Assembly (NCBI RefSeq): GCF_026870155.1
Contig: NZ_CP113975.1
Location: forward strand, 2,542,001 to 2,606,000
DNA length: 64,000 bases
Reading direction: 5' to 3'
Origin: Flavobacterium marginilacus
Lineage (GTDB): Bacteria; Bacteroidota; Bacteroidia; Flavobacteriales; Flavobacteriaceae
In this document: in pieces, positions 35,835 through 64,000 of the stretch
How the letters are laid out: the number at the start of each line of letters is the position of its first letter
Position numbering within the stretch: the first letter of the stretch is position 1
The notes under the pieces: model-generated
Database searches by the model: none
Seen by the model: the letters and a program-made list of their open reading frames with translations, nothing else
What the model was told of the DNA's origin: nothing
Translations under genes and position numbers: made by a program

Positions 35835-36707
35835 TTATAGTAAATGTTTGGAAACATATTCAAAACTTGTTTTAATCGAATCAGCTGGGGTTGGAGAATA
35901 ATTGGTTTCCTGCTCTACAAAAAAGTGCTGCATTCCTGAGAGTTTAGCTTCAGTAAAAATGGTTTTGAAGTTGATACTTCCTTCTCCAATTTCGGTATTC
36001 CATTCTGCTTTGGACTTATCCATATCTTTTACATGCCACATTGTAAATCGGCCGGGATTAGCTTTAAACATCTGCAAAGGATCATTTCCTGAACGGACTG
36101 CCCAATATATATCCAATTCAAAATCAACTAACTTTTTATCCGTTTCCTGCAGTAAAATATCATAACCTGTCAGATTTCCAAACTTTTTAAATTCAAAATC
36201 ATGATTGTGATAAGCTAATTTTAGTCCGGATTGTTTACATAAAACGGCTACTTCATTTACTTTTTGCGCAATTCGTTTAAAACCATCTAGATCGCTTCTT
36301 AATTTTTCATCTAAATAAGGAACGGTTATGTATTCACTTCCTAATTGATTAGCGCATTCAATAGAAGCTTTCAGAAAATCAGCGTTATTGTCTTTTATAA
36401 AAGAATTAAAATCATAATGTCCGCTAGGTGCTTTTAGACCATTATCGGCAAGTATTTTTTTGAAATCTTTTGCTGAAGTGCCAAAAAAACCTTTATCACT
36501 GGAGTAGCCATAGGTTTCCACTTCTTTATAACCTGACTTAGCCACATGTTCTAAAACTCCTTTCACATCGTTAGAAAATGCTGCCCTCAAAGTATACAAT
36601 TGAATACCGATATTTTTTTGTTTTGAAGTAAAGGCAAGGGAAGGAGCAATTGCCAATGCGCCCAATGCCAAACCACTGTTAATTATAAAATCTCTTCTCT
36701 TTATCAT
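35835..36707 (-). CDS. Exported sugar phosphate isomerase/epimerase-like TIM barrel
   Basis: A 290-residue protein with an N-terminal signal that fits Tat export (IKRRDFIINSGLALGALAIAP). The body is an AP-endonuclease-2-type xylose isomerase-like barrel. IGIQLYTLR opens it, LAYHNHDFEF and DFELDIYWAVRSG carry metal ligands, and FVEQE the last. It is the last gene of a ten-gene minus-strand operon for oxidised sugars. The exact reaction is not determinable; isomerisation, epimerisation or lyase activity on 3-keto sugars is possible. Confidence 0.82.
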   Translation of the reverse strand: MIKRRDFIINSGLALGALAIAPSLAFTSKQKNIGIQLYTLRAAFSNDVKGVLEHVAKSGYKEVETYGYSSDKGFFGTSAKDFKKILADNGLKAPSGHYDFNSFIKDNNADFLKASIECANQLGSEYITVPYLDEKLRSDLDGFKRIAQKVNEVAVLCKQSGLKLAYHNHDFEFKKFGNLTGYDILLQETDKKLVDFELDIYWAVRSGNDPLQMFKANPGRFTMWHVKDMDKSKAEWNTEIGEGSINFKTIFTEAKLSGMQHFFVEQETNYSPTPADSIKTSFEYVSKHLL

Positions 36708-53225: not shown

Positions 53226-53308
53226 TAAAACATTTTCAACGTTTTCCTGAATTAATCTCGTAGCCACTACTCACTACAGCTATTCACTAATCACTAAAAA
53301 AAGTCAAT

Positions 53309-54580
53309 ATGCAAATAGTAATCATAGGCGGAGGTTTCGCCGGCATTAATTTAGCCAAAGAACTTACCAATCAAAAAGGAATCGAGGTAACTCTTGTAGA
53401 CAAAAACAATTATAATTTCTTTCCGCCGCTCATTTATCAAGTAGCAACAGCCTTTCTAGAGCCTTCAAGCATCAGTTATCCTTTCCGAAAATTCTTTGCA
53501 GGCAAAAAAAATCTGCAGTTTCGTTTGGGCGAATTGGAAAAAGTAATTCCAGCAGAGAACAAAATCATCCTCAATAACGGCGAATTAAATTACGATTACC
53601 TGGTTTTTGCAACGGGAGCCGAAACGAGTTATTTTGGAATGGAAAATGTCAAAAAAAATGCCATTCCGATGAAAACACTCAATGATGCTATCGAAATGCG
53701 CAATACATTACTGAAAAATCTGGAAAAAGCAGCCATTTGCAAGGACATTCATAAGCGAAGAAAACTTTTGACGATAGTTGTTGCTGGTGGAGGTCCTACT
53801 GGAGTGGAAGTATCGGGAATGTTTGCCGAAATGCGAAAAAACATATTGCTAAAAGAATATCCTGAACTGCAAACATCTGCCAGTAATATTTATTTGGTCG
53901 ATGGAGGAGATGCCTTACTGTCGCCAATGAGCGAAGAATCCCAAAAAGACACCTTGGATGCAGTGACCAAACTCGGAGTGGTCGTAAAATTAAATACCCG
54001 AGTAGTTGATTATAAAGATGATACGGTTTTCTTTGCTGATGGAAACACCATTCAGACCAAAAATTTAATCTGGGCAGCAGGAGTTTCAGCCAAAGAATTT
54101 GAAGGAATTCCGGCAGAAAGTTACGGACGCGGCAAGCGCATGGCAACCGATACCTTCAACAAAGTCAACGGAACCGAAAACATCTATGCCATCGGCGATA
54201 CCTGCATACAGCTGAGTGACACCGATTTTCCCGGCGGTCATCCGCAGGTGGCGCAGGTAGCAATCCAGCAGGGTGTAAACTTAGCCGAAAATTTTAAACT
54301 AATGCTTCAAAACAAAGCCTTAAAACCATTCAAATACAACGACAAAGGTTCTATGGCAATCATTGGAAAAAACAAAGCGGTTGTCGATTTGCCCAAACCC
54401 AAAATGCATTTCAAAGGTTTTTTTGCCTGGATGATCTGGTTATTTGTCCACCTGATGTCCTTGATAACCTACCGCAACCGAATCAATACTTTCTACCATT
54501 GGATGATTGCATATTTTTCAAAAGATCAATCGTTGCGAATGATTATCAGACCTGAGAAGAGGGTAAAAGAGGAGGTGTAA
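53309..54580 (+). CDS. NDH-2-type NAD(P)/FAD-dependent dehydrogenase
   Basis: A 423-residue flavoprotein of the type II NADH dehydrogenase family. The FAD-binding IIGGGFAGINLAKEL is at the N-terminus. The NADH-binding VVAGGGPTGVEVSGMFAEM begins near residue 153. AIGDTCIQ and GGHPQVAQVAIQQG carry the second FAD contact and the quinone-site region. A C-terminal hydrophobic/amphipathic stretch (FFAWMIWLFVHLMSLITYRNR) attaches it to the membrane. It would pass electrons from NADH to menaquinone without pumping protons. Confidence 0.88.
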   Translation: MQIVIIGGGFAGINLAKELTNQKGIEVTLVDKNNYNFFPPLIYQVATAFLEPSSISYPFRKFFAGKKNLQFRLGELEKVIPAENKIILNNGELNYDYLVFATGAETSYFGMENVKKNAIPMKTLNDAIEMRNTLLKNLEKAAICKDIHKRRKLLTIVVAGGGPTGVEVSGMFAEMRKNILLKEYPELQTSASNIYLVDGGDALLSPMSEESQKDTLDAVTKLGVVVKLNTRVVDYKDDTVFFADGNTIQTKNLIWAAGVSAKEFEGIPAESYGRGKRMATDTFNKVNGTENIYAIGDTCIQLSDTDFPGGHPQVAQVAIQQGVNLAENFKLMLQNKALKPFKYNDKGSMAIIGKNKAVVDLPKPKMHFKGFFAWMIWLFVHLMSLITYRNRINTFYHWMIAYFSKDQSLRMIIRPEKRVKEEV

Positions 54581-54621
54581 CTTACGAAAAAAATCATATT
54601 GTGAATAATCTAGATTATAAA

Positions 54622-54849
54622 ATGACACAATTGAAAAATCGATTCAAAATGAAATTTATAGCAAAACTTATATTTTTATTTATAACAATTTATCTATTTA
54701 TACCCTATTGTATTGGTTTAATGGAAAAAATTCAGAAACCAGCTTTTAAAAATCTTCCAATGAAAGATTATATTTTAATCGGAATAATTTTGATGATTAT
54801 GATTAGCCTAAATATAAAGTGGTTTTATTTTGATAAAAAAAGAAAATAA
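54622..54849 (+). CDS. Small hypothetical two-helix membrane protein
   Basis: About 75 residues from the ATG at 54622 (other starts: GTG at 54601 or ATG at 54649). Two hydrophobic segments (about residues 12-32 and 45-65) are joined by a Lys-rich loop. I do not recognise a family. It lies 41 bases after the NDH-2 gene and is the last gene before the cassette array. Confidence 0.5.
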   Translation: MTQLKNRFKMKFIAKLIFLFITIYLFIPYCIGLMEKIQKPAFKNLPMKDYILIGIILMIMISLNIKWFYFDKKRK

Positions 54850-54929
54850 CGTGTATCTATTTAGTTTTTATTAAGACATAATTTCTGATAAAAAAACTAT
54901 ACATTTGAAAAAAAAAACCTTCATATAAC

Positions 54930-54983
54930 ATTCCGATTTGGGTCAATTTACGATGGGTTGTTTCTTGTATAAACTAGTTAGGC
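54930..54983 (+). other. Candidate attI-like site at the left end of the cassette array
   Basis: The sequence ahead of the first cassette (CCGATTTGGGTCAATTTACG and following, ending CTAGTTAGGC) resembles one arm of the attC-like sites (GGATTTGGGCAATT) but is not part of a palindrome. It ends in a GTTAGGC core at 54977-54983, where cassette A begins. It could be a primary (attI) site or the remnant of an attC site. No integrase gene adjoins it. Confidence 0.35.
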
Positions 54984-55037
54984 GTAATATTAACAACCCA
55001 ACCAACCAGACTATAATAAATTCTTAACATAAACAAT

Positions 55038-55220
55038 ATGACGACAAACAAAAAATTTAGAGCAATTTGTATTCATGGTATTTCCATGACACTCATTTGG
55101 AGAGGACCTATTAGAGCTGACCGAAATTTAGCTGAAATCGACATGGAAGAACATTTAACGTCTTGTAATATTTCTCAAGACCATTCTATCATTCAAGAAG
55201 GTGACCCACTTTGGGAATAA
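55038..55220 (+). CDS. Small hypothetical protein of cassette A
   Basis: A 60-residue ORF (MTTNKKFRAICIHGISMTLIW...) starting 61 bases inside cassette A and ending 29 bases before the ATG of the next gene. It has no signal peptide and no motif that I know. Its reality is uncertain, but in a cassette the first ORF normally begins close to the cassette start, as here. Confidence 0.4.
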   Translation: MTTNKKFRAICIHGISMTLIWRGPIRADRNLAEIDMEEHLTSCNISQDHSIIQEGDPLWE

Positions 55221-55249
55221 ATTTATTAACTCTTAAAAACAAAATAAAA

Positions 55250-56458
55250 ATGAAACAATTAATTTTAATTTCAGTTCTATTTCTAACATCGTTAGAAACA
55301 TTTTCACAAGACTGTCCATGCAACAAGGCGCTAGAAACTAATACACAGAACGAATTTACAACTCAAACAGGTAGAGACTTTAAACAAGCTACAACAACGT
55401 TCTTTTCACAAGACTATACTTTTTGGGAAAATTATAGTTCCTATCAAAATAAAACTACAGACCTCGATGCTGGCTTTTCAATCTTTTCATCAAGTTTTTC
55501 AGATAATATGACGAAAGAAGAAAAAAAAGCCAAGTTTGAAAATATGAAGTCCACATTTCAAGCAACAAATAACATATCGCAAAATGATTATTTATTTATC
55601 TCACAAAAAATTGCATCTGAGACTGTTTATAATACTTGGATCAAATGCGTTGAAGTACAATGCTCAAACCAAGACAGAATGGTAATAAGCTATACGATAT
55701 CTGGAGATATGATTAATGTTACTTTAAAATGGTATGCAAAAACAAACCAACGATATACAAAAATTGGAACCATTCAACCATTAAACGCAGAATATCAATC
55801 AGGTGATTTATGTCAATATTATAATATTAAATCTCAAAATGCTTTAACTAGCACTTATAAAAGGATAAATGCAAATCAAGACGTAGTTATTACCGTTAAT
55901 GTCAAAGATTATGATGCTTTACAAGTTGTTATTCCAAGAGTAGAAGTAGAAAACAACTCTTCAGGTATGCCTGTTGGGACTATTGTAACTTCAGTATTAG
56001 ATTATCCAACATTTTGTAAATTAAATAATCAATCAGAAGTTTTGAATCTTAAAAAAAGTAAATGGGCTCCATGTGACGGTAGAAGTGTTGCAGGAAGTGA
56101 CTATGCAAACTACGATGCAGTCGTTCCTGATTTACGAGGTGTTTTTTTACGAGGATTAAATGACTTCAAAGTACCTTTAGCGCCAAGTATAAATCCCCAA
56201 CAAGCCGACCCAGACCCTGATGTAAAAGGAAATCCAAGAAAGGAAAAGAGTTTTCAAAATGACGCTATTCAGACACACACACATAACTTTAACACTGGCG
56301 GTTGGTACAATAATGGTAATAAAGGCTCTGGCATTGGATATGTTGGTGTTAATTGGGATCAAGGCAGGACAACAACGGGACCAACAGGTAATGTTTCAGA
56401 AAAAGAAACTAGACCGAAAAATGTAGCAGTTTATTACTATATAAGAATTAACAAATAA
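55250..56458 (+). CDS. Secreted protein with C-terminal phage tail-collar-like domain
   Basis: A 402-residue precursor starting at the ATG at 55250, with a signal peptide (about 1-20, ending ETFSQ). Residues about 20-230 are of no recognised family. The C-terminal about 150 residues resemble the tail-collar/microcystin-dependent-protein region: VGTIVTSVLDYPTFCKLN, KWAPCDGRSVAGSDYA, VPDLRGVFLRGLND, HTHNF and TRPKNVAVYYYIRI. Its stop is 5 bases before the attC-like box, as expected for a cassette gene. The function is unknown; surface or adhesion roles are possible. Confidence 0.65.
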   Translation: MKQLILISVLFLTSLETFSQDCPCNKALETNTQNEFTTQTGRDFKQATTTFFSQDYTFWENYSSYQNKTTDLDAGFSIFSSSFSDNMTKEEKKAKFENMKSTFQATNNISQNDYLFISQKIASETVYNTWIKCVEVQCSNQDRMVISYTISGDMINVTLKWYAKTNQRYTKIGTIQPLNAEYQSGDLCQYYNIKSQNALTSTYKRINANQDVVITVNVKDYDALQVVIPRVEVENNSSGMPVGTIVTSVLDYPTFCKLNNQSEVLNLKKSKWAPCDGRSVAGSDYANYDAVVPDLRGVFLRGLNDFKVPLAPSINPQQADPDPDVKGNPRKEKSFQNDAIQTHTHNFNTGGWYNNGNKGSGIGYVGVNWDQGRTTTGPTGNVSEKETRPKNVAVYYYIRINK

Positions 56459-56462
56459 ATAC

Positions 56463-56597
56463 TACGCCTAACAGCGGTTTGGCAAAAGTGGCGGTTCAGT
56501 GCTCCGCAGACACATTTGTGGTTAATCAAAGTTTGGTTCTCCGCATCTACATTTGTGGTGAAAATCGCCACCTTCGCCAAGCCGCAAAACGTTAGCA
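56463..56597 (+). other. attC-like site 1 (end of cassette A)
   Basis: It begins with TACGCCTAAC (56463-56472) and ends with GTTAGCA (56591-56597). The arms GCGGTTTGGCAAAAGTGGCG (left) and CGCCACCTTCGCCAAGCCGC (right) fold into a long imperfect stem. The top of the stem contains a direct near-repeat CTCCGCA...ACATTTGTGGT. The length is 135 bases. The core positions fit R''/R' boxes, although GTTAGCA departs from the strict GTTRRRY consensus. Confidence 0.65.
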
Positions 56598-56742
56598 AAC
56601 AGCTTCAAAAAGCATAACGAAAAACATGGAAACCGAAAATATAAAGAATAAAAATCTACTAGAAACTGTAACGGAGTTAACGAGCTTTTTGCAAGCAAGC
56701 GGTGAGGTCGATTTTGATTTTTTCTATAGAGCATATGAAATA

Positions 56743-57295
56743 ATGAATTACCCCGAGGCAGAGCCTCGAGGTATCGCATTACTCAAAAGACAACCGTAGC
56801 TGATTTTTGTTAAACGATTTGTAAACAGTCTTTTCTTCTCCTTGATTTTGAATGTATTTCTGAATCACATTCTCATTACCATACTGACCAACCGTATTTA
56901 CATAATATCCACTCGTCCAAAAATTACCTCCCCATAACTTACTTTTAACTTCTGGATGTAAACGAAAGAGCTCTTTTGCTGTAATACTTTTTACTGTCCT
57001 GACAATAATTTCAACAGAAATCTTTGGCACGCTTTGTATCAAAAAATGTACATGATTTTCATCTGCTCCTATCTCAACAAAATGAATTTCATATCGTTCC
57101 GAAATATTTCTACAAACTTCTACCAAACTCAGTTCTACATCCTCCGATAAAACATTTCTTCGATATTTTATCGGACAAACCAAATGATAAAGCAACAAGC
57201 TTTTATTATGCCGTTTGAAAATATGTTCACTCATCAAACAAATATACTAATCTTTGCGCATCACCCCGAGGCAGAGCCTCGAGGAATTCTTTTGA
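56743..57295 (-). mobile_element. IS200/IS605-type insertion sequence, copy 2
   Basis: The same 560-base unit as at 13882-14441 in reverse orientation (shared segment 56742-57301), with the same terminal 21-nt palindromes and an identical transposase. It lies inside the cassette B gene. Choosing the left junction after TTTTAA and the right end at TTCAT restores an uninterrupted gene on excision, which supports the boundaries; a 547-base alternative also restores frame. Confidence 0.85.
56779..57234 (-). CDS. tnpA: IS200/IS605-family transposase TnpA, copy 2
   Basis: A 151-residue Y1 HUH transposase identical in protein sequence to the copy at 13949-14404 (H61-V-H63 and the Tyr near 127 in QKYIQNQ). 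It has the same promoter element TATATTTG directly before its ATG. It lies in antisense to the host cassette gene. It should be able to mobilise both copies. Confidence 0.9.
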   Translation of the reverse strand: MSEHIFKRHNKSLLLYHLVCPIKYRRNVLSEDVELSLVEVCRNISERYEIHFVEIGADENHVHFLIQSVPKISVEIIVRTVKSITAKELFRLHPEVKSKLWGGNFWTSGYYVNTVGQYGNENVIQKYIQNQGEEKTVYKSFNKNQLRLSFE

Positions 57296-57649
57296 TTAAA
57301 AACCTTCACAATAAAAGATTGGAATCATTTAAAAAATGAATTACCAAAATGGAGTGAAGACCAATTAGATGTTTTAGTTAATACTTTACATGACGAACAT
57401 GGCGATGGTAATAAAATTATTGACAACTTCTTCATTGGGTATATTTTTAGCATATCTCCTGACAACTTAGCTAGTACTATTTTAGATTGCTTTTTATATT
57501 ATTTTATGAGTGAAAATAAAATTGAGTCTATTGAATTGCTTAATTTAATTGAAGCAAAGGTTAATCTTCTTTACAATAAAAAATATATCAAAGAAGAATC
57601 AGAATACATATATTGGGTGAATTTAATTGAGGATGCTAGAAAAAAAGCC

Positions 57650-57785
57650 GTTTGCTGACAGCTATTACAACGGATTTGGACAATTGGCTTAATGGAAGTA
57701 TGGTTTTGTACTTGGAATAATTTGACAAATCCGAAGAATGGGCTTAATTTAGTCTCAAACCCGCTGTAGTACCAGAACGTTAGCA
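57650..57785 (+). other. attC-like site 2 (end of cassette B)
   Basis: It runs from GTTTGCTGAC (57650-57659) to GTTAGCA (57779-57785), 136 bases. ACAACGGATTTGG near the left end pairs with CAAACCCGCTGT near the right end. An inner stem CGGATTTGGACAATT pairs with AATTTGACAAATCCG. Its sequence is closely similar to the sites at 61983 and 62697. Confidence 0.65.
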
Positions 57786-58031
57786 GTAATCCCTCATAGT
57801 CCGCCTGCCTTACCTCCCGAAGCTAACGGCCATTGCATAAAAAATCAAAAAAACATAAATTAGCTACGCTCATTGCAAGGCCGATTTGTAAACTGTTGCG
57901 TAATAGCACGAGTGTAATCCTGGTTGGGAAGTGTGTGATACCTCCAGTGGTGGTACATTTTTTTTGTAACCCCGATTAGAATATTTTATTTATCCGAAAG
58001 AACTTCCTCTTTGAGTATTTTTTTAATTTAA
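57786..58031 (+). other. Non-coding region between attC-like site 2 and the IS110 gene
   Basis: It contains GGCCATTGCA (from about 57830) facing TGCAAGGCC (about 57883), and a hairpin TACCTCC/GGTGGTA at 57939-57955 followed by eight T. This may be the left end of the IS110 element. In the IS110 group such a long 5' non-coding end encodes the bridge RNA that specifies target and donor. No ORF is seen. Confidence 0.4.
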
Positions 58032-59161
58032 ATGTTCAGAATCAGAATGAAAGAACAAAATCAAATTTTGATGGAGATTGTCAATCCTCAAGCAGCAGGA
58101 ATAGACATCGGAAGCAGGAGTCATTTTGTAGCTATTGGTCAAAAAGAAGAACACGTAAGAGAGTTTGGTGTTTATAATGAAGACCTCAAAGCAATATCAG
58201 ATTGGCTCAAAGGAAATGGCATCCAAACTGTAGCAATGGAAAGTACAGGCACTTATTGGCAAGCATTATATGCTGTTTTGATAAACGATGGTTTTCAAGT
58301 GATATTGTGCAATGGAAAATTTACCAAAAACATCAAAGGAAAGAAAACCGATGTACAAGACTGCCAATGGATACAAAAATTACATTCCATAGGCCTATTA
58401 TCTGGAAGTTTTTTGCCAGATTTACAAACTGAACAACTCCGAACTTATTGCCGACACAGAGCCGGTTTAATTGATGTTGCTGCTGACACAAGCAAGAAAA
58501 TGCAAAAATACCTTCGTTTACTCAACCTTCGTCTGGATATAATTGTTAAAGATATTTGTGGTTTGACAGGACTTAAGATGATAGAAGCCATTTGTAATGG
58601 CGAAACTGATTCTCAGAAATTACACCTAAAAATATTGATTTAAACCTCATTGGCTATCAATACTTCGAAGGAGTAGATTTATTAAAGATAGAAGGATTCA
58701 GCCATCAAACCTTACTTACATTAATGAGCGAAGTGGGGTTAGAAGGGATTAAAAAATTCGGTACAGCCAAACAATTTGCAAGCTGGCTCAGACTTACTCC
58801 GAACAATAAAATAAGTGGCGGAAAAGTACTCAGTTCTCGCGTGCCAAAAGGGAGTAACCGCTTGAAAATAGCCCTGAGGAATGCTGCCAATGCCATCGGA
58901 AATTTAAAAGAATCAACACCTCTGAGAGACTTTTTTCATCGAATTAATTTTCGAAAAGGAAGAGTATCTGCCATAAGCGCAACAGCAAGAAAATTAGGTA
59001 TAATCATTTGGAATATGATTGTAAAAAACACCTCCTACTATAATCCGGAAAATTACTTATATTTAGACGAAAAAAGAAAACTAGCGGTACAAAGAAGAAT
59101 ACAAAAACAAATGGAAAAACATCAATTCAAAGTCGATGATTTTAACTTTGTAACAATTTAG
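58032..59161 (+). pseudogene. IS110-family transposase, internally deleted and frameshifted
   Basis: The N-terminal part (58032-58643, 203 codons; second start at 58047) has the RuvC-like DEDD pattern: AGIDIGSRSHFVAIG, TVAMESTGTYW and GKKTDVQDCQW. It ends in a premature stop after NGETDSQKLHLKI. The C-terminal part resumes in another frame at about 58630 (KNIDLNLIGYQYF) and continues through LLTLMSEVG, the TAKQFASWLRLTPNNKISGGK region with the catalytic Ser area, to 59161. About 50-65 residues of the linker between the halves, present in IS110 transposases of normal length (about 430-460), are missing. It is not expected to be active. Confidence 0.8.
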
Positions 59162-59257
59162 TTTTTAGATATTTACAAAAACGTTAGTTAGAACCAATCG
59201 GCAGAAGTGTAAAACAACAACTTATATTTGAGAAAAAACCTTGAAAAAAACATATAA

Positions 59258-59797
59258 ATGGAACTTCTTCTTCTTTTAATCTTAACATTCATCCTAATTA
59301 TTGGAGTTCCAATCGTTATAAGTTATTTTATTTATCGTAAGTTAAGAAAAACAGAATTTAGAAAATATGCTTTTATTATTCCATCTCTCATTTTAGGAAC
59401 TTTAACTTACTTTATTTACACTGCCTTTTATCCAACAGACAGTTTTTACAAAGAAGATTTTGAATCAAATACAAATATCAAATTACCAGCTACAGCAAAA
59501 ATTTTAACTAAAGATGCTACATATCCTGACCAATTTGGAGATTATTGGTCGTCGGCAATTATTGAGCTAAATGAAGATGAATATGTAAAGTTGCAATCAG
59601 ACCTTTCAAAGTCTAAAAATTTTGCAATTGACACTTCAAATCAGAAAATGGGAATTACAAAAGAATATTATAACTTAACAGAGAATGTATCTGAAAAGGA
59701 AATTAAAATTGTGTATTACAATAAAAATGAACAATGGTTTAAAGTTGCATTTTTAAAGGATAAAAAAAGAATAATATTTGAACGAAGTAGCTCATAA
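59258..59797 (+). CDS. Hypothetical membrane-anchored protein of cassette C
   Basis: A 179-residue protein with two N-terminal hydrophobic segments (about 2-25 and 38-57) and a soluble C-terminal domain (TKDATYPDQFGDYWSSAIIELNEDEYVKL...IKIVYYNKNEQWFKVAFLKDKKRIIFERS) of mixed alpha/beta prediction. I do not recognise a family. It lies upstream of the intron-disrupted attC-like site and is probably the original cassette gene. Confidence 0.6.
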   Translation: MELLLLLILTFILIIGVPIVISYFIYRKLRKTEFRKYAFIIPSLILGTLTYFIYTAFYPTDSFYKEDFESNTNIKLPATAKILTKDATYPDQFGDYWSSAIIELNEDEYVKLQSDLSKSKNFAIDTSNQKMGITKEYYNLTENVSEKEIKIVYYNKNEQWFKVAFLKDKKRIIFERSSS

Positions 59798-59903
59798 AGC
59801 AATTCAGTATTATAGTTTTGTAATTGCGCTTATTTGAAGAATATGTAACAACATCGCACTAAAATTGGCTACTGCTAATCGAGTAGACGGCTCCGCCCCA
59901 AAC

Positions 59904-61352
59904 CTACCGTGTGGACACAAATACAATTTCGTTATTTTTATCACTAAATAAAGATATAATATGCGAAGATATTTTACAGACATTGATGATTCTCGACTAT
60001 TAAAAAGGAGTAATTTAATATTAGATAGTTTATTTCATAATTGTGTTCATTCGATACGTCAGCTTACACAAAGCGATTCAGAATGTAAAGCAGTTTATCG
60101 TTTCTTGCAGAACAAAAGAGTTTCAGAATCGAAATTAATTAAAAACATGTCAGCAAACTGCTGTTTTTCAGCTCAAGACAAAACAGTTTTATGTATACAG
60201 GACACAAGTGAGGTCAATTTATATAATCATAAAAACAGAGTTAAAAAAGACGAATTTATAGGATTGACTAATGCTGCAGCAAAAGGAGGAATTGGATTTT
60301 TACTGCATCCTAGTTTCGTTATAGATGCTTATAGTTTTGTTCCGTATGGCTTTTCAGATGTAAAAATATGGAACAGGCCTTTAGAGAAACTTACAAAAAA
60401 GGAAAGGAATTATAATTTGCTTCCAATTGAAGAAAAGGAATCTTATAAATGGATAGAATCTTCCCAAAAATCCAAGGAACTTTTAGAGAAATCAAAAAAA
60501 GTCATCATCATTCAGGATCGAGAAGGTGATATTTATGAGCAATTTGCAATGATTCCAGATCAAAAGACGGAATTATTGGTAAGAGCAAGAGCAAACAGAA
60601 CGCTACTAAACAAGGTTAAATTGTTTAGTTTTATAGCCAATGAACCTCTTAAAGGGAAATATACGATAGAATTAGAAGGTGATAAAAGAAGAAATATAAA
60701 CAAACGGGAAGCTACCTTAGAAGTTAGATTTTCTGAAGTAACTATCCAAAAAAATGATTTAGTTTCAAAGAATGCACCCAAAAGCCTTGATTTATATATC
60801 ATCGAAGCAAAAGAAATTGGCGATAACATTGATAATCCAATATGCTGGAGATTACTAACAACCATTAAAGTCTTAGACCTAGACACAGCCTTAAAATGTA
60901 TCGAATGGTATACTTGTAGATGGATTATAGAAGAGGTTTTTAGAATTCTAAAAAAGGAAGGATTTAATATAGAAGCAAGCGAATTAGGTTCTGCAAAATC
61001 TATTCGAAAATTGTCTTTAATGATGATGGAGACAATTGTCAAACTATTTTTAATGCAAATAGCATATAGTATTCCAGAGGAAGAAATAGAAGCGAGAAGT
61101 TGTTTTTCAGATCAAGAACTTGAATGTTTAGAATATCAAATGATAAAATTAGAAGGAAAAACAGAAAAATTAAAAAATCCTCATATCCAAAAGGATTTAA
61201 AAAGATATGTTTGGGTTATTGCAAGGCTTGGTGGATGGAAAGGATATGCAAGTGGGAGAAAACCAGGAATAACCACTTTCTCTATCGGAATACAGAAATT
61301 TGCTTCAATAATGGAGGGATGGCAATTGTTTTTAGATGTGTCCACACGGTAG
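59904..61352 (+). mobile_element. IS4-family insertion sequence inside the group II intron
   Basis: A 1449-base element with 16-bp perfect terminal inverted repeats (CTACCGTGTGGACACA) and a 9-bp target duplication GCCCCAAAC at 59895-59903 and 61353-61361. Both the duplication size and the transposase agree with the IS4 family. It splits domain VI of the intron. Confidence 0.92.
59961..61352 (+). CDS. IS4-family (Tn5/IS50-like) transposase
   Basis: A 463-residue DDE transposase. The N-terminal DNA-binding region (SIRQLTQSDSECKAVYRFLQN) is Tn5-like. The catalytic residues are suggested by LCIQDTSEVN (first D), IIIQDREGDIYEQF (second D) and the YREK signature in EWYTCRWIIEEVFRILKKEGF (about residues 315-332). 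The TAG stop codon is formed by the last three bases of the element, within the right inverted repeat. The ORF is complete, so the element may be active. Confidence 0.92.
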   Translation: MRRYFTDIDDSRLLKRSNLILDSLFHNCVHSIRQLTQSDSECKAVYRFLQNKRVSESKLIKNMSANCCFSAQDKTVLCIQDTSEVNLYNHKNRVKKDEFIGLTNAAAKGGIGFLLHPSFVIDAYSFVPYGFSDVKIWNRPLEKLTKKERNYNLLPIEEKESYKWIESSQKSKELLEKSKKVIIIQDREGDIYEQFAMIPDQKTELLVRARANRTLLNKVKLFSFIANEPLKGKYTIELEGDKRRNINKREATLEVRFSEVTIQKNDLVSKNAPKSLDLYIIEAKEIGDNIDNPICWRLLTTIKVLDLDTALKCIEWYTCRWIIEEVFRILKKEGFNIEASELGSAKSIRKLSLMMMETIVKLFLMQIAYSIPEEEIEARSCFSDQELECLEYQMIKLEGKTEKLKNPHIQKDLKRYVWVIARLGGWKGYASGRKPGITTFSIGIQKFASIMEGWQLFLDVSTR

Positions 61353-61982
61353 GCCCCAAACGGAACGGAGTGCGCCTCTCACACCACCGAGCGTACGGGT
61401 CACGTACTCGGCGGTTCGCAAATCATCATCCAAAAGCTCTTTACACCTTTTGGGCTATCCATAATTTACTTTAAGATTAGGCTAAGTAAACTTTCCTAAT
61501 CGAATTTCTTGGAGATTTGCGTTCAGTCCTTCCTTGTTTGTGAGTCCTGTGCGGTATCTATTCGCAACTCGTTGCCCCAAGTACTATGACCTCTGCTGAC
61601 TTCTCTTTCTAATGTTCTCGACATTTAAGAGACCTCCCCTGGTAAGAGCTTTTTCCTTCATCCAATTCCTGCGCCATCTACAAATCAACGATTTTGGTAA
61701 TCTTCGGACGTTGCGTTGGTGTGGACGCTTATCCTCGCTGACTTGCCTCCTATGACGTTTCTGTTCGTCAGTACCGGATTTTGCCGTTTCGCTTCCTTCA
61801 CTGCATACCTCACGGTAAACCAGCTTGCGACGTACTAATGGTTCGGGTTTTCAATCCGCCCATAAGGGACTTGCACCCTCTGGAAAAATAACACGCTGTA
61901 AGATTTGTTTTCTAATTGGAAATTTGTATTTTTCAATTTTTATCAAAGCTTACAGCGTGTGTCCTGCTCATGCAGGACACAC

Positions 61983-62108
61983 ACTTGCTACAATAGATTT
62001 GGGCATTTGGCTAAATTTAAAAATGGTCTTGTATTTGGGAAGTTTAGGCAAATCCGAAGATAAGGCTTAATTTAATCCCAAACCTCTTGTAGCAAGGGGA
62101 CGTTATGC
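61983..62108 (+). other. attC-like site 3, main part (end of cassette C)
   Basis: TTGCTACAATAGATTTGGG near the left end pairs with CCCAAACCTCTTGTAGCAA near the right end (17 of 19 positions). The site ends with GTTATGC at 62102-62108. Its first box is completed by TACTGCTA ending at 59877 on the other side of the intron; excision of the intron would restore TACTGCTAACTTGCTACAAT. Confidence 0.65.
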
Positions 62109-62824
62109 GTCAGCCAAGAGCAAATACCCCTAAAAGTTATATGAAAAAAATAAGCTTAATTTTACTTATACTCGTTCCATTTTTTTGCTATCCACAATTC
62201 GAAAAAGCTAATAATGAAATGATAAAAGATACAAACCCAGACTTTGAAAATTATGAAAATTTATTACTTCAAGCAACAGATTATATTTTGAGTAACACTC
62301 TTGATGTAAAAGACCCAGACTTTATTGGTGCTTCTAAAATCGTTGCTTTTTGGATGGATAGAGATACTTGGTTTGGAATACCGATAGGCACAAAATTTCA
62401 TCAAACATTAAGTAAAGATAAGAATCAAAAATTCCTTAATATTATTTCAATGATTAATTATATTTTGCATCAAAAAGAATCAAATCAAAGGTCACTAAAG
62501 AATAAACCTGTCAAAGGGCAAATTTATAAAGACCAAGATGATGTCCGAGAAGTACAACTTGAAGGTGCCAAAATATTTTTAACATATGCCATAAAGCCTG
62601 AAAACAAAATTACTTTGAGCACAGAAACCCAAATTTATTTGGAAGCATATAAAAATGGAAGCTTAAAAGAAGAGTTATTGAAAAACTAAAGGCCGAACGC
62701 ATAACAGCTACTACAACGGATTTGGGCAATTGGCTTAATCGAAAGATGGTTTTGTATTTGAATGATTTGGCAAATCCGAAGAATGAGCTTAATTTAGTCC
62801 CAAACCCGCTGTAGTAGCAACACG
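62103..62824 (+). other. Integron-like cassette D
   Basis: The cassette starts with GTTATGCGT at 62102-62110, and its complement ACGCATAAC is at 62697-62705, a perfect 9-base match. It is a compact 722-base cassette with a single plus-strand gene that fills most of it. Confidence 0.65.
62141..62689 (+). CDS. Secreted hypothetical protein of cassette D
   Basis: A 182-residue precursor from the ATG at 62141 (MKKISLILLILVPFFCYPQ), a clear signal peptide cleaved near residue 19-20. An upstream ATG at 62105 would include the cassette core and is rejected. The mature part is mostly helical (DFENYENLLLQATDYILSNTLD..., LSTETQIYLEAYKNGSLKEELLKN). I do not recognise a family. The stop is 7 bases before the attC-like box. 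Confidence 0.65.
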   Translation: MKKISLILLILVPFFCYPQFEKANNEMIKDTNPDFENYENLLLQATDYILSNTLDVKDPDFIGASKIVAFWMDRDTWFGIPIGTKFHQTLSKDKNQKFLNIISMINYILHQKESNQRSLKNKPVKGQIYKDQDDVREVQLEGAKIFLTYAIKPENKITLSTETQIYLEAYKNGSLKEELLKN

Positions 62825-62830
62825 TTAGCC
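62697..62830 (+). other. attC-like site 4 (end of cassette D)
   Basis: It runs from ACGCATAAC (62697-62705) to GTTAGCC (62824-62830), 134 bases. GCTACTACAACGGATTTGGG pairs with CCCAAACCCGCTGTAGTAGC at 18 of 20 positions. It also contains CAAATCCG, which pairs with CGGATTTG in an alternative inner stem. It is almost the same as sites 2 and 3. Confidence 0.7.
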
Positions 62831-62874
62831 GTCATTGCAGAGCAACACTGTACACGTAGATATCTTATCAAAAA

Positions 62875-63639
62875 ATGAACTTCAAAACTTTAAACCCTGA
62901 TAAATCAATTGCTCTTTTTGTAAAGAGTATTTTGGTATTTGAAGAAGCTGAACCGAATCTAAAAACAGTGCTTCCATTTTTTGCTGACGGTTATCCCGGA
63001 TTAATGTTACAAGATACCGAAAATGGGTTATTTGTAAACCCATACAATAAACAAATGCCTTTTTTATTCCTTTACGGACAAACCATAAAGCCAATAGAAT
63101 TAGTCATAAATGGATCATATAATCTCATAATTTTTCAATTATATCCATTTGTTCTAAAAAGTTTTTTCAATGTTACAGCAAAAGATATTAATGACGGTTG
63201 CTATGACTTGCAACAATTAGAGAGTGCCAGCAAAATAACAAGACAACTCATTGAAAGTAAGGGACATGAAAAAAGAATTACTATTTTATCAAATCTGCTT
63301 TTCAAAATCTTCCAAGACAAAAAAGAAACACTTGATTTTCAAATCAAACAAGCCGTTCAAATTATTATCGAAAACAAAGGACAAATTGCAATAGGAAGCA
63401 TTTGTAAGCAAATAAATTTGACAGAACGAACTTTTGAAAGAAGATTTAAAGAAGAAGTTGGAGTTCCACCGAAGCAATTCTCTTCCATTATTCAATTCCA
63501 ACTTTCAATGGAACAATTAACTCAAAAGGATTTTTCTAAACTAACTGATGTCGTTTACAAAAATGGTTATGCCGATCAGTCTCATTTTGTGAAGGTTTTT
63601 AAATCATTCACAGGCAAAACGCCAAAGGCTTTTAAGTAG
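62875..63639 (+). CDS. AraC-family transcriptional regulator
   Basis: A 254-residue protein. The N-terminal half (about 1-150) is a sensor domain of the type found in Bacteroidota AraC proteins (LFVKSILVFEEAEP, PFFADGYPGLMLQD). The C-terminal half is the AraC DNA-binding domain with two helix-turn-helix motifs: IAIGSICKQINLTERTFERRFKEEVGVPPKQFSSI and LTDVVYKNGYADQSHFVKVFKSFTGKTPKAF. It lies 82 bases upstream of an NmrA-like gene and probably controls it. Both appear to be in cassette E. Confidence 0.9.
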   Translation: MNFKTLNPDKSIALFVKSILVFEEAEPNLKTVLPFFADGYPGLMLQDTENGLFVNPYNKQMPFLFLYGQTIKPIELVINGSYNLIIFQLYPFVLKSFFNVTAKDINDGCYDLQQLESASKITRQLIESKGHEKRITILSNLLFKIFQDKKETLDFQIKQAVQIIIENKGQIAIGSICKQINLTERTFERRFKEEVGVPPKQFSSIIQFQLSMEQLTQKDFSKLTDVVYKNGYADQSHFVKVFKSFTGKTPKAFK

Positions 63640-63687
63640 AAAAACCACTTTGTCGGTTTTATACAATTCTATGACTTAACCCTATCT

Positions 63688-63695
63688 TAATTTTG
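63688..63695 (+). promoter_or_regulatory. -7 element of the NmrA-like gene
   Basis: TAATTTTG, 25 bases before the ATG at 63721. The gene therefore has its own promoter downstream of the AraC gene. Confidence 0.5.
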
Positions 63696-63720
63696 CATCA
63701 TACTTTTAAACAATAAAAAT

Positions 63721-64000
63721 ATGAGCAATTCCATTTTAGTTTTAGGTAGTACAGGTAAAACAGGCAAACGAGTTGCCGAGCGTTTACAAAATCTTCAATT
63801 ACCCATTCGTTTAGGTTCAAGAAACGGACAACCATCTTTTAATTGGGATGAACCGAGCAATTGGCACGAAGTCCTTACTGGAATTCAAAGTGTTTACATC
63901 ACCTTTCAACCTGATTTAGCCGTACCGCAATCCATAGAAAAAATCAAACAATTTACTGAAATTGCCAAACAACACAATGTAAAGCAATTGGTGCTTTTGT
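63721..64000 (+). CDS. NmrA-like NAD(P)-binding protein, N-terminal part
   Basis: The frame is open from the ATG at 63721 to the end of the window, 93 residues. SILVLGSTGKTGKRVAERL is a GxTGxxG Rossmann motif of the NmrA/atypical-SDR type, followed by a sugar-free nucleotide region (LPIRLGSRNGQ) and a WHEVLTGIQSVYITFQP segment typical of NmrA-like reductases. The C-terminus is outside. It is the second gene after the AraC-type regulator. Confidence 0.8.
   Translation, partial: MSNSILVLGSTGKTGKRVAERLQNLQLPIRLGSRNGQPSFNWDEPSNWHEVLTGIQSVYITFQPDLAVPQSIEKIKQFTEIAKQHNVKQLVLL

Follow-up and report, generated by a model that had tools for sequence, protein, structure and literature searches.

In canonical integrons, as described in PMC3053210, the integrase IntI reads two extrahelical bases of the folded attC site, one of them near its alpha-I2 helix, and the account of the IntI insertion given in PMC8138268 describes that segment as essential for integron function. 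The IntegronFinder 2.0 paper, in its statement on the group, names one complete integron in Bacteroidetes proper, that of Salinibacter ruber M1 (PMC9024848). Here we describe a window of 64,000 nucleotides from Flavobacterium marginilacus (C1:2542001-2606000 of a 5.32 Mb genome in two contigs), in which an integron-type cassette array starts at window position 54977 with an attI-like edge, attC sites and cassettes with complementary ends. We consider it about 90% probable that this array is one of several belonging to a chromosomal Flavobacterium integron system worked by a distant recombinase that lacks the IntI insertion; titles and abstract openings in the open-access literature searched announced no integron of such a kind in Flavobacteriaceae.

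The cassette boundaries provide the first line of evidence. The sites were searched with R1, a covariance model made in this analysis from 21 such sites of this genome. Scoring the best 150 of 6073 candidates genome-wide, where sites may be missing and the weakest matches may be chance, gave at least 126 attC matches, 115 of them in 13 clusters and 11 single, which supplies the attC-model matches called for by an earlier note made from the letters of the window alone. Six sites lie at the window locus (C1:2598464-2610000), four of them inside the window and two just outside it (C1:2609142 and 2609864); the window sites measure 121-122 bases from core to core and 136-137 over R1, with scores of 82-136 bits. 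Because the four sites in the window belonged to the training set, the R1 score alone is not independent for them, and the independent evidence is the pairing of cassette ends. A weak minus-strand R1 match (window 36124-36241, 28 bits), outside the arrays, is probably due to chance.

Complementary boxes at the two ends of each of the cassettes A to D had been reported in the earlier note. This was confirmed directly for cassettes A (54977..56472, 10 of 10 bases), B (56591..57659, 9 of 10) and D (62102..62705, 9 of 10), all on the plus strand, and for cassette C only after joining the flanks of a group II intron. The continuous DNA there reads TACTGCTAAT and not TACTGCTAAC, because the intron interrupts the R'' box, which is broken after 59877; joining the flanks brings TACTGCTA next to ACACTTGC, the expected complementary box. 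Throughout the large array at C1:3738093-3768535 the 36 cassettes pair at a mean of 9.58 of 10 bases, a value reached by none of 20,000 permutations (maximum 7.19). Over 74 intervals between consecutive sites, from 21 loci of other genomes, the pairing of the seven bases that follow GTT is 6.18 of 7, compared with a mean of 2.90 and a maximum of 3.49 in permutations; counted were only intervals with a gap of 40-3500 bases in which both GTT and AAC could be located. The pairing of cassette ends is beyond chance. Cassette 26 of the large array pairs at 6 of 10 bases only, probably reflecting a damaged attC near C1:3761224, as the core there begins with matching bases. Six of the 36 cassettes (2, 4, 6, 12, 29 and 36; C1:3738220-3768406) share length and ends and are apparently one 404-base cassette.

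The stems of the sites also covary. For the stem alignment we took the best 150 of 181 matches from 22 chosen sources (148 distinct rows), fitted to R1. Among the distinct rows, 18 of the 19 stem pairs show changes in both partners (701 cells, compared with 184 in shuffles) and 92.9% of stem cells are paired, compared with 64.7% after shuffling; three pairs are imperfect, being unpaired in 36 to 46 sites. Tandem sites with end-pairing cassettes show the R'', L'', L', R' organisation. The two extrahelical bases that canonical attC sites carry on one side of the fold were not found: insert columns of the stem hold a base in no more than 1-4 of the 150 sites, in an alignment fitted to the 21-site model, and one stem pair has a one-sided gap in about three further sites. 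Nearly all aligned sites share an A-C mismatch at one position within the covarying stem (148/150), a spacer of 1 nt between AAC and the stem (149/150) and one of 5 nt between the stem and GTT (146/150).

Group II introns provide a further view of these sites. Nine copies were found in the examined loci: this genome has five, spread over three arrays with two in that of the window, Flavobacterium sp. HJJ has three, and another genome (G113) has one. In all nine the insertion is in the bottom strand of an attC, at its R'' box, beside R1 matches; the 3' junction was seen in eight, the ninth (from HJJ) running off its contig, and HJJ and this genome share one insertion. In the account given in PMC7923331, group IIC-attC introns insert at the R'' of the attC bottom strand. 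An element that elsewhere seeks attC bottom strands sits in these R'' boxes, so the intron treats the sites as attC. The copy in cassette C (59878..61980, minus strand; RF02001 and RF01998 of Rfam, with boundaries from the other copies, and group II domains at 61526-61819, minus strand) carries an insertion sequence (IS) of 1451 bp on the plus strand (59903..61353), with inverted repeats, the 7-base direct repeat CCCCAAA and a 463-residue DDE transposase (PF14706, PF01609). Without this IS the intron is 645 nt long, like most copies: six measure about 644-650 nt (counting the window's without its IS), one 384 and one 1888. Rfam D1-D4-3 and D1-D4-1 matches were found in the window and in one further locus (L010), and none at gathering score in an HJJ locus (L158). 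The list of open reading frames (ORFs) shows no long intron ORF on the minus strand of the window copy, reverse transcriptase not having been searched for. The segment 61894-61990 was at one point taken for an attC arm with a 30-base cassette; comparing the nine copies led us to reject this, and it is the 5' part of the intron.

No recombinase gene lies within the window, as the earlier note had said, and in a genome profile search the matches to the canonical IntI family TIGR02249 mapped elsewhere. The best IntI-like protein of the genome is a 345-residue tyrosine recombinase encoded by a full-length gene at C1:3735795-3736832, 1.13 Mb from the window, followed on the same strand by an attI-like site and then by the 36-site array. 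It scores 202 bits against TIGR02249 (cut-off 265) and 219.9 bits against NF040815 (cut-off 220), the best of its family scores. The IntI insertion, measured as the residue count between two motifs, is absent from the family: the count is 58-60 in 79 of 79 proteins from 80 related loci (one locus giving none), compared with 100 in 12 of 12 canonical IntI of the phylum, and nine aligned relatives lack it too. By these sequence criteria the protein is a relative without the IntI insertion and not the IntI-type recombinase anticipated in the earlier note. A canonical IntI elsewhere in the genome was also considered and rejected, since the best match, once aligned, has no insertion. The absent insertion and the near-absent extrahelical bases may represent one coordinated difference.

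The structure model of the whole recombinase (mean pLDDT, the predicted local distance difference test, 73; predicted TM-score 0.49) finds XerA as its best fold and IntI4 as the next. At the N-terminus an extra domain of about 60 residues has the modelled order strand-strand-helix-strand-strand-helix (mean pLDDT 76). Its sequence had suggested a HARP-like domain; the top Foldseek row is the HARP domain of SMARCAL1 (4o66), a non-significant match (E 0.93, TM 0.40/0.44); the best VIA-align Z, 4.1, is to a protein other than HARP, and no Pfam HARP match appeared at E 5. In the recombinase tree, canonical IntI sit on a long branch joined to 584-residue recombinases with support 84/89, a grouping flagged as long branches meeting. 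These 584-residue proteins (L125 4111-5865; L130 1542-3296) seem by eye to hold three tandem copies of the N-terminal domain, attC sites follow each gene, and open frames of about 564-614 residues occur in further genomes. A more distant tyrosine recombinase gene was also observed in six spaced copies inside an attC array (L126 and the start of L127; G139:C1:997039-1014823), on the strand opposite to the sites.

The attC sites are linked to the recombinase in position and orientation. Among its relatives (the best 80 of 529 found in named genomes), 33 of the 80 loci contain R1 matches, and all 114 matches lie downstream of the recombinase on its strand; none was found upstream in 676 kb, compared with 310 kb searched downstream. 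Where at least 2 kb of downstream sequence is available, 28 of 39 loci have a match. A contig end lies within 3 kb downstream in 48/80 loci and within 3 kb upstream in 8/80, an excess that fits repeats breaking the assemblies. In this genome the attI-like core lies 120 bp after the recombinase stop codon. A core that matches the first cassette is found 103-163 bp downstream of the stop codon in 22 of 34 loci, with a common upstream motif. One search gave attI-like copies at C1:3736869, 2325096 and 2963341; the window edge, absent from that search, is a further copy (54920..54979, plus strand, core GTT at 54977-54979), recognised because it aligns with the attI sites beside the recombinase gene and its relatives. 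The third large array (L132), on the minus strand and with 28 R1 sites, begins at C1:2325096-2325296 with an attI that is 94% like the one next to the recombinase gene. Beside it is a short stretch that matches this gene at its 3' end, as if a recombinase had been lost.

The closest named relative by recombinase, at 98% identity, is Flavobacterium sp. HJJ (G349), labelled as the same species, which has the window locus on its contig C13. Its left flank (window 53287 to 54980) is 97.9% identical and its right flank, from window 69890, is 98.9% identical; between them BLAST found no match of at least 150 bases except attC-like and intron pieces, shorter pieces being unlisted. The left break is the attI core, GTTA being the last bases common to both strains. 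At the recombinase locus, too, 98.75% identity extends across the recombinase and attI and stops three bases into the core. By this comparison the cassettes have been replaced between the two strains, and the break on the left falls at the attI core. Cassette content, which the earlier note had named as a point against an integron should it prove fixed, differs at two loci of the two strains; cassette shuffling is observed here as strain differences only. The HJJ cassettes at the window locus encode TIR, Imm26 and PIN-domain proteins; one gene of this region (L158 11210-12271, minus strand) codes for a TIR protein that matches the spbK model of PADLOC.

These differences bear on the explanation that survives best beside ours, namely that the window array is a remnant without ongoing cassette exchange. 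It has no adjacent recombinase, ISs break cassettes B and C and introns split two attC sites; against this, the cassettes differ between strains with 98-99% identical flanks, and the genome retains a full-length recombinase gene. A remnant appears unlikely to us, if still worth serious weight.

A canonical IntI, either carried by a mobile element or present in the genome in the past, could instead have moved the cassettes, with the insertion-less recombinase as a bystander. IntI-less clusters are known, under the name CALIN, from the treatment in PMC9024848, and canonical IntI does occur in the phylum, where TIGR02249 exceeds its cut-off in 105 of 395 genomes, which indicates that the search works. 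In the genus, however, TIGR02249 (E 1e-60) was found in none of 150 genomes, compared with 86 for the recombinase (E 1e-40) and 129 for R1 (E 1e-3). R1 matches occur in 82 of the 86 genomes with the recombinase, and the median R1 count is 12 with it and 2 without (counts up to 22 per genome taken). Across the 395 phylum genomes R1 is associated with the recombinase (odds ratio 7.7, p 8e-17; both present in 67) and is depleted where canonical IntI occurs (odds ratio 0.41, p 0.002), both values being uncorrected for relatedness; 108 phylum genomes with TIGR02249 at E 1e-45 were used for this association, one from the same class and the others from the same phylum. Together with the position of all 114 linked matches behind the insertion-less recombinase, this makes a canonical IntI highly improbable as the agent. 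A reading of the repeats as a dispersed hairpin element, or as targets of introns or ISs, instead of as recombination sites would suit the IS200-like, IS110-type and other ISs and the group II intron inside the array, but would not predict complementary first and last ten bases in each cassette, sites that follow one recombinase in a constant orientation, or breaks between strains at the core, and we hold it to be next to negligible.

Several results weigh against a system worked by the insertion-less recombinase. The support is sequence-based and comes from the sites, the pairing, the attI, the linkage, the strain differences and the missing insertion. R1 matches also occur in 47 of the 64 genus genomes without a recombinase match, so arrays without a recombinase are common; in the phylum, 46 of 113 recombinase-positive genomes have no R1 match and 45 of 112 R1-positive genomes no recombinase match. 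Of the 39 loci having 2 kb or more of downstream sequence, 11 show no R1 match after the recombinase. In 12 of the 34 loci the best core is found at a distance other than 103-163 bp, often after an apparent further attC, for which reason R1 probably misses some attC types. The right break with HJJ falls inside a gene, longer in HJJ, and not at an attC. The bottom strand has no clear folding advantage over the top one (better in 89 of 146 sites, p 0.012, and in 43 of 79 in this genome), and its stability is a weak test of strand choice. Finally, in the comparison reported in PMC8138268, the insertion is not fully conserved even in an integron-like subgroup.

In the system we favour, the recombinase would excise and insert cassettes, acting in cis in its own array and in trans at the window, a role with which the cluster of CALIN type served by a distant recombinase, suggested in the earlier note, would fit. 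Its substrate would be single-stranded attC, with folded hairpins recombining with double-stranded attI. Hypothetically, the A-C mismatch, the asymmetric spacer (1 versus 5 nt) and the extra N-terminal domain may replace the strand and site recognition of the IntI type. A bolder reading, which we put forward tentatively as possible rather than probable, is that of a separate Bacteroidota integron lineage, widespread in Flavobacterium, that arose independently from a Xer-like recombinase or split off before the IntI insertion was gained, and was overlooked by searches selecting for that insertion. It would have bulge-free attC sites, strand choice by mismatch and spacer and, taking over from the insertion in hairpin recognition, an N-terminal domain that is HARP-like, binds forks and in some relatives seems to be tripled.

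The array at the window locus ends near window coordinate 69890 (C1:2611890), about 5.9 kb beyond the window, and not at 64000 as the earlier note had it; nor do all its genes point the same way, the IS200-like transposase of cassette B and the intron both lying on the minus strand. Unless stated otherwise, the features below are on the plus strand. Cassette A contains ORFs of 60 residues (55038-55220) and up to 415 residues (55211-56458), taken from the ORF list and without Pfam match at E 0.01, and ends in an attC of divergent type (56464-56599; 82.3 bits, hairpin). ISs are present in cassettes B and C. In cassette B, an IS200-like (Y1) transposase (56779-57237, minus strand; PF01797, E 3.7e-35), flanked by two copies of a 21-base palindrome, belongs to an element that apparently interrupts the cassette ORF; the attC follows at 57651-57787 (120.7 bits). 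Cassette C, delimited up to the intron (57779..59877) from ORFs, Pfam and end pairing, harbors an IS110-type transposase, its sequence divided between two ORFs (58032-59161), as well as a 179-residue ORF (59258-59797). Its attC is split into 59870-59877 (the R'' part) and 61981-62110, as seen from the joined flanks and an R1 score of 135 bits over 61974-62110. Cassette D holds one ORF of 182-194 residues, without Pfam match at E 0.01, and its attC lies at 62697-62832 (135.7 bits). Cassette E, assigned from ORFs and Pfam, runs from 62824 to the window end at 64000 and on to about 66501. It encodes an AraC-type regulator (62875-63639) and an NmrA-like protein (from 63721) within the window, and an IS transposase and a cytochrome-c-like protein beyond it, where its attC is split by an intron.

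If the proposed system is real, it would represent a second solution to recombining folded single-stranded DNA, bearing on the origins of integrons, and the attC matches in 129/150 genus genomes would point to a large pool of cassette genes in Bacteroidota. Among known systems, the recombinase shares with the XerA/XerC type (NF040815) its best family score and a similarly short catalytic domain, and differs in the extra N-terminal domain of about 60 residues and the adjoining attC array. It belongs to the same superfamily as canonical IntI, at 202 bits to TIGR02249, but stays below the cut-off of 265 and lacks the insertion of about 40 residues. The introns resemble group IIC-attC introns in their bottom-strand R'' insertion in 9/9 copies. 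With six attC sites and no neighbouring integrase, the window locus falls within CALIN, defined by at least two attC sites, although it retains an attI-like edge site and its attC stems have different features. The sedentary chromosomal integron of Vibrio type likewise has tens of small cassettes with the recombinase and attI at one end. The length of its repeats (VCR, Vibrio cholerae repeats) is similar to the 121-124 nt from core to core measured in this genome. In contrast to that type, the Flavobacterium system has a recombinase without the IntI insertion that is co-directional with its array, stems nearly without extrahelical bases, and further recombinase-less arrays, some with attI-like copies, on one chromosome.

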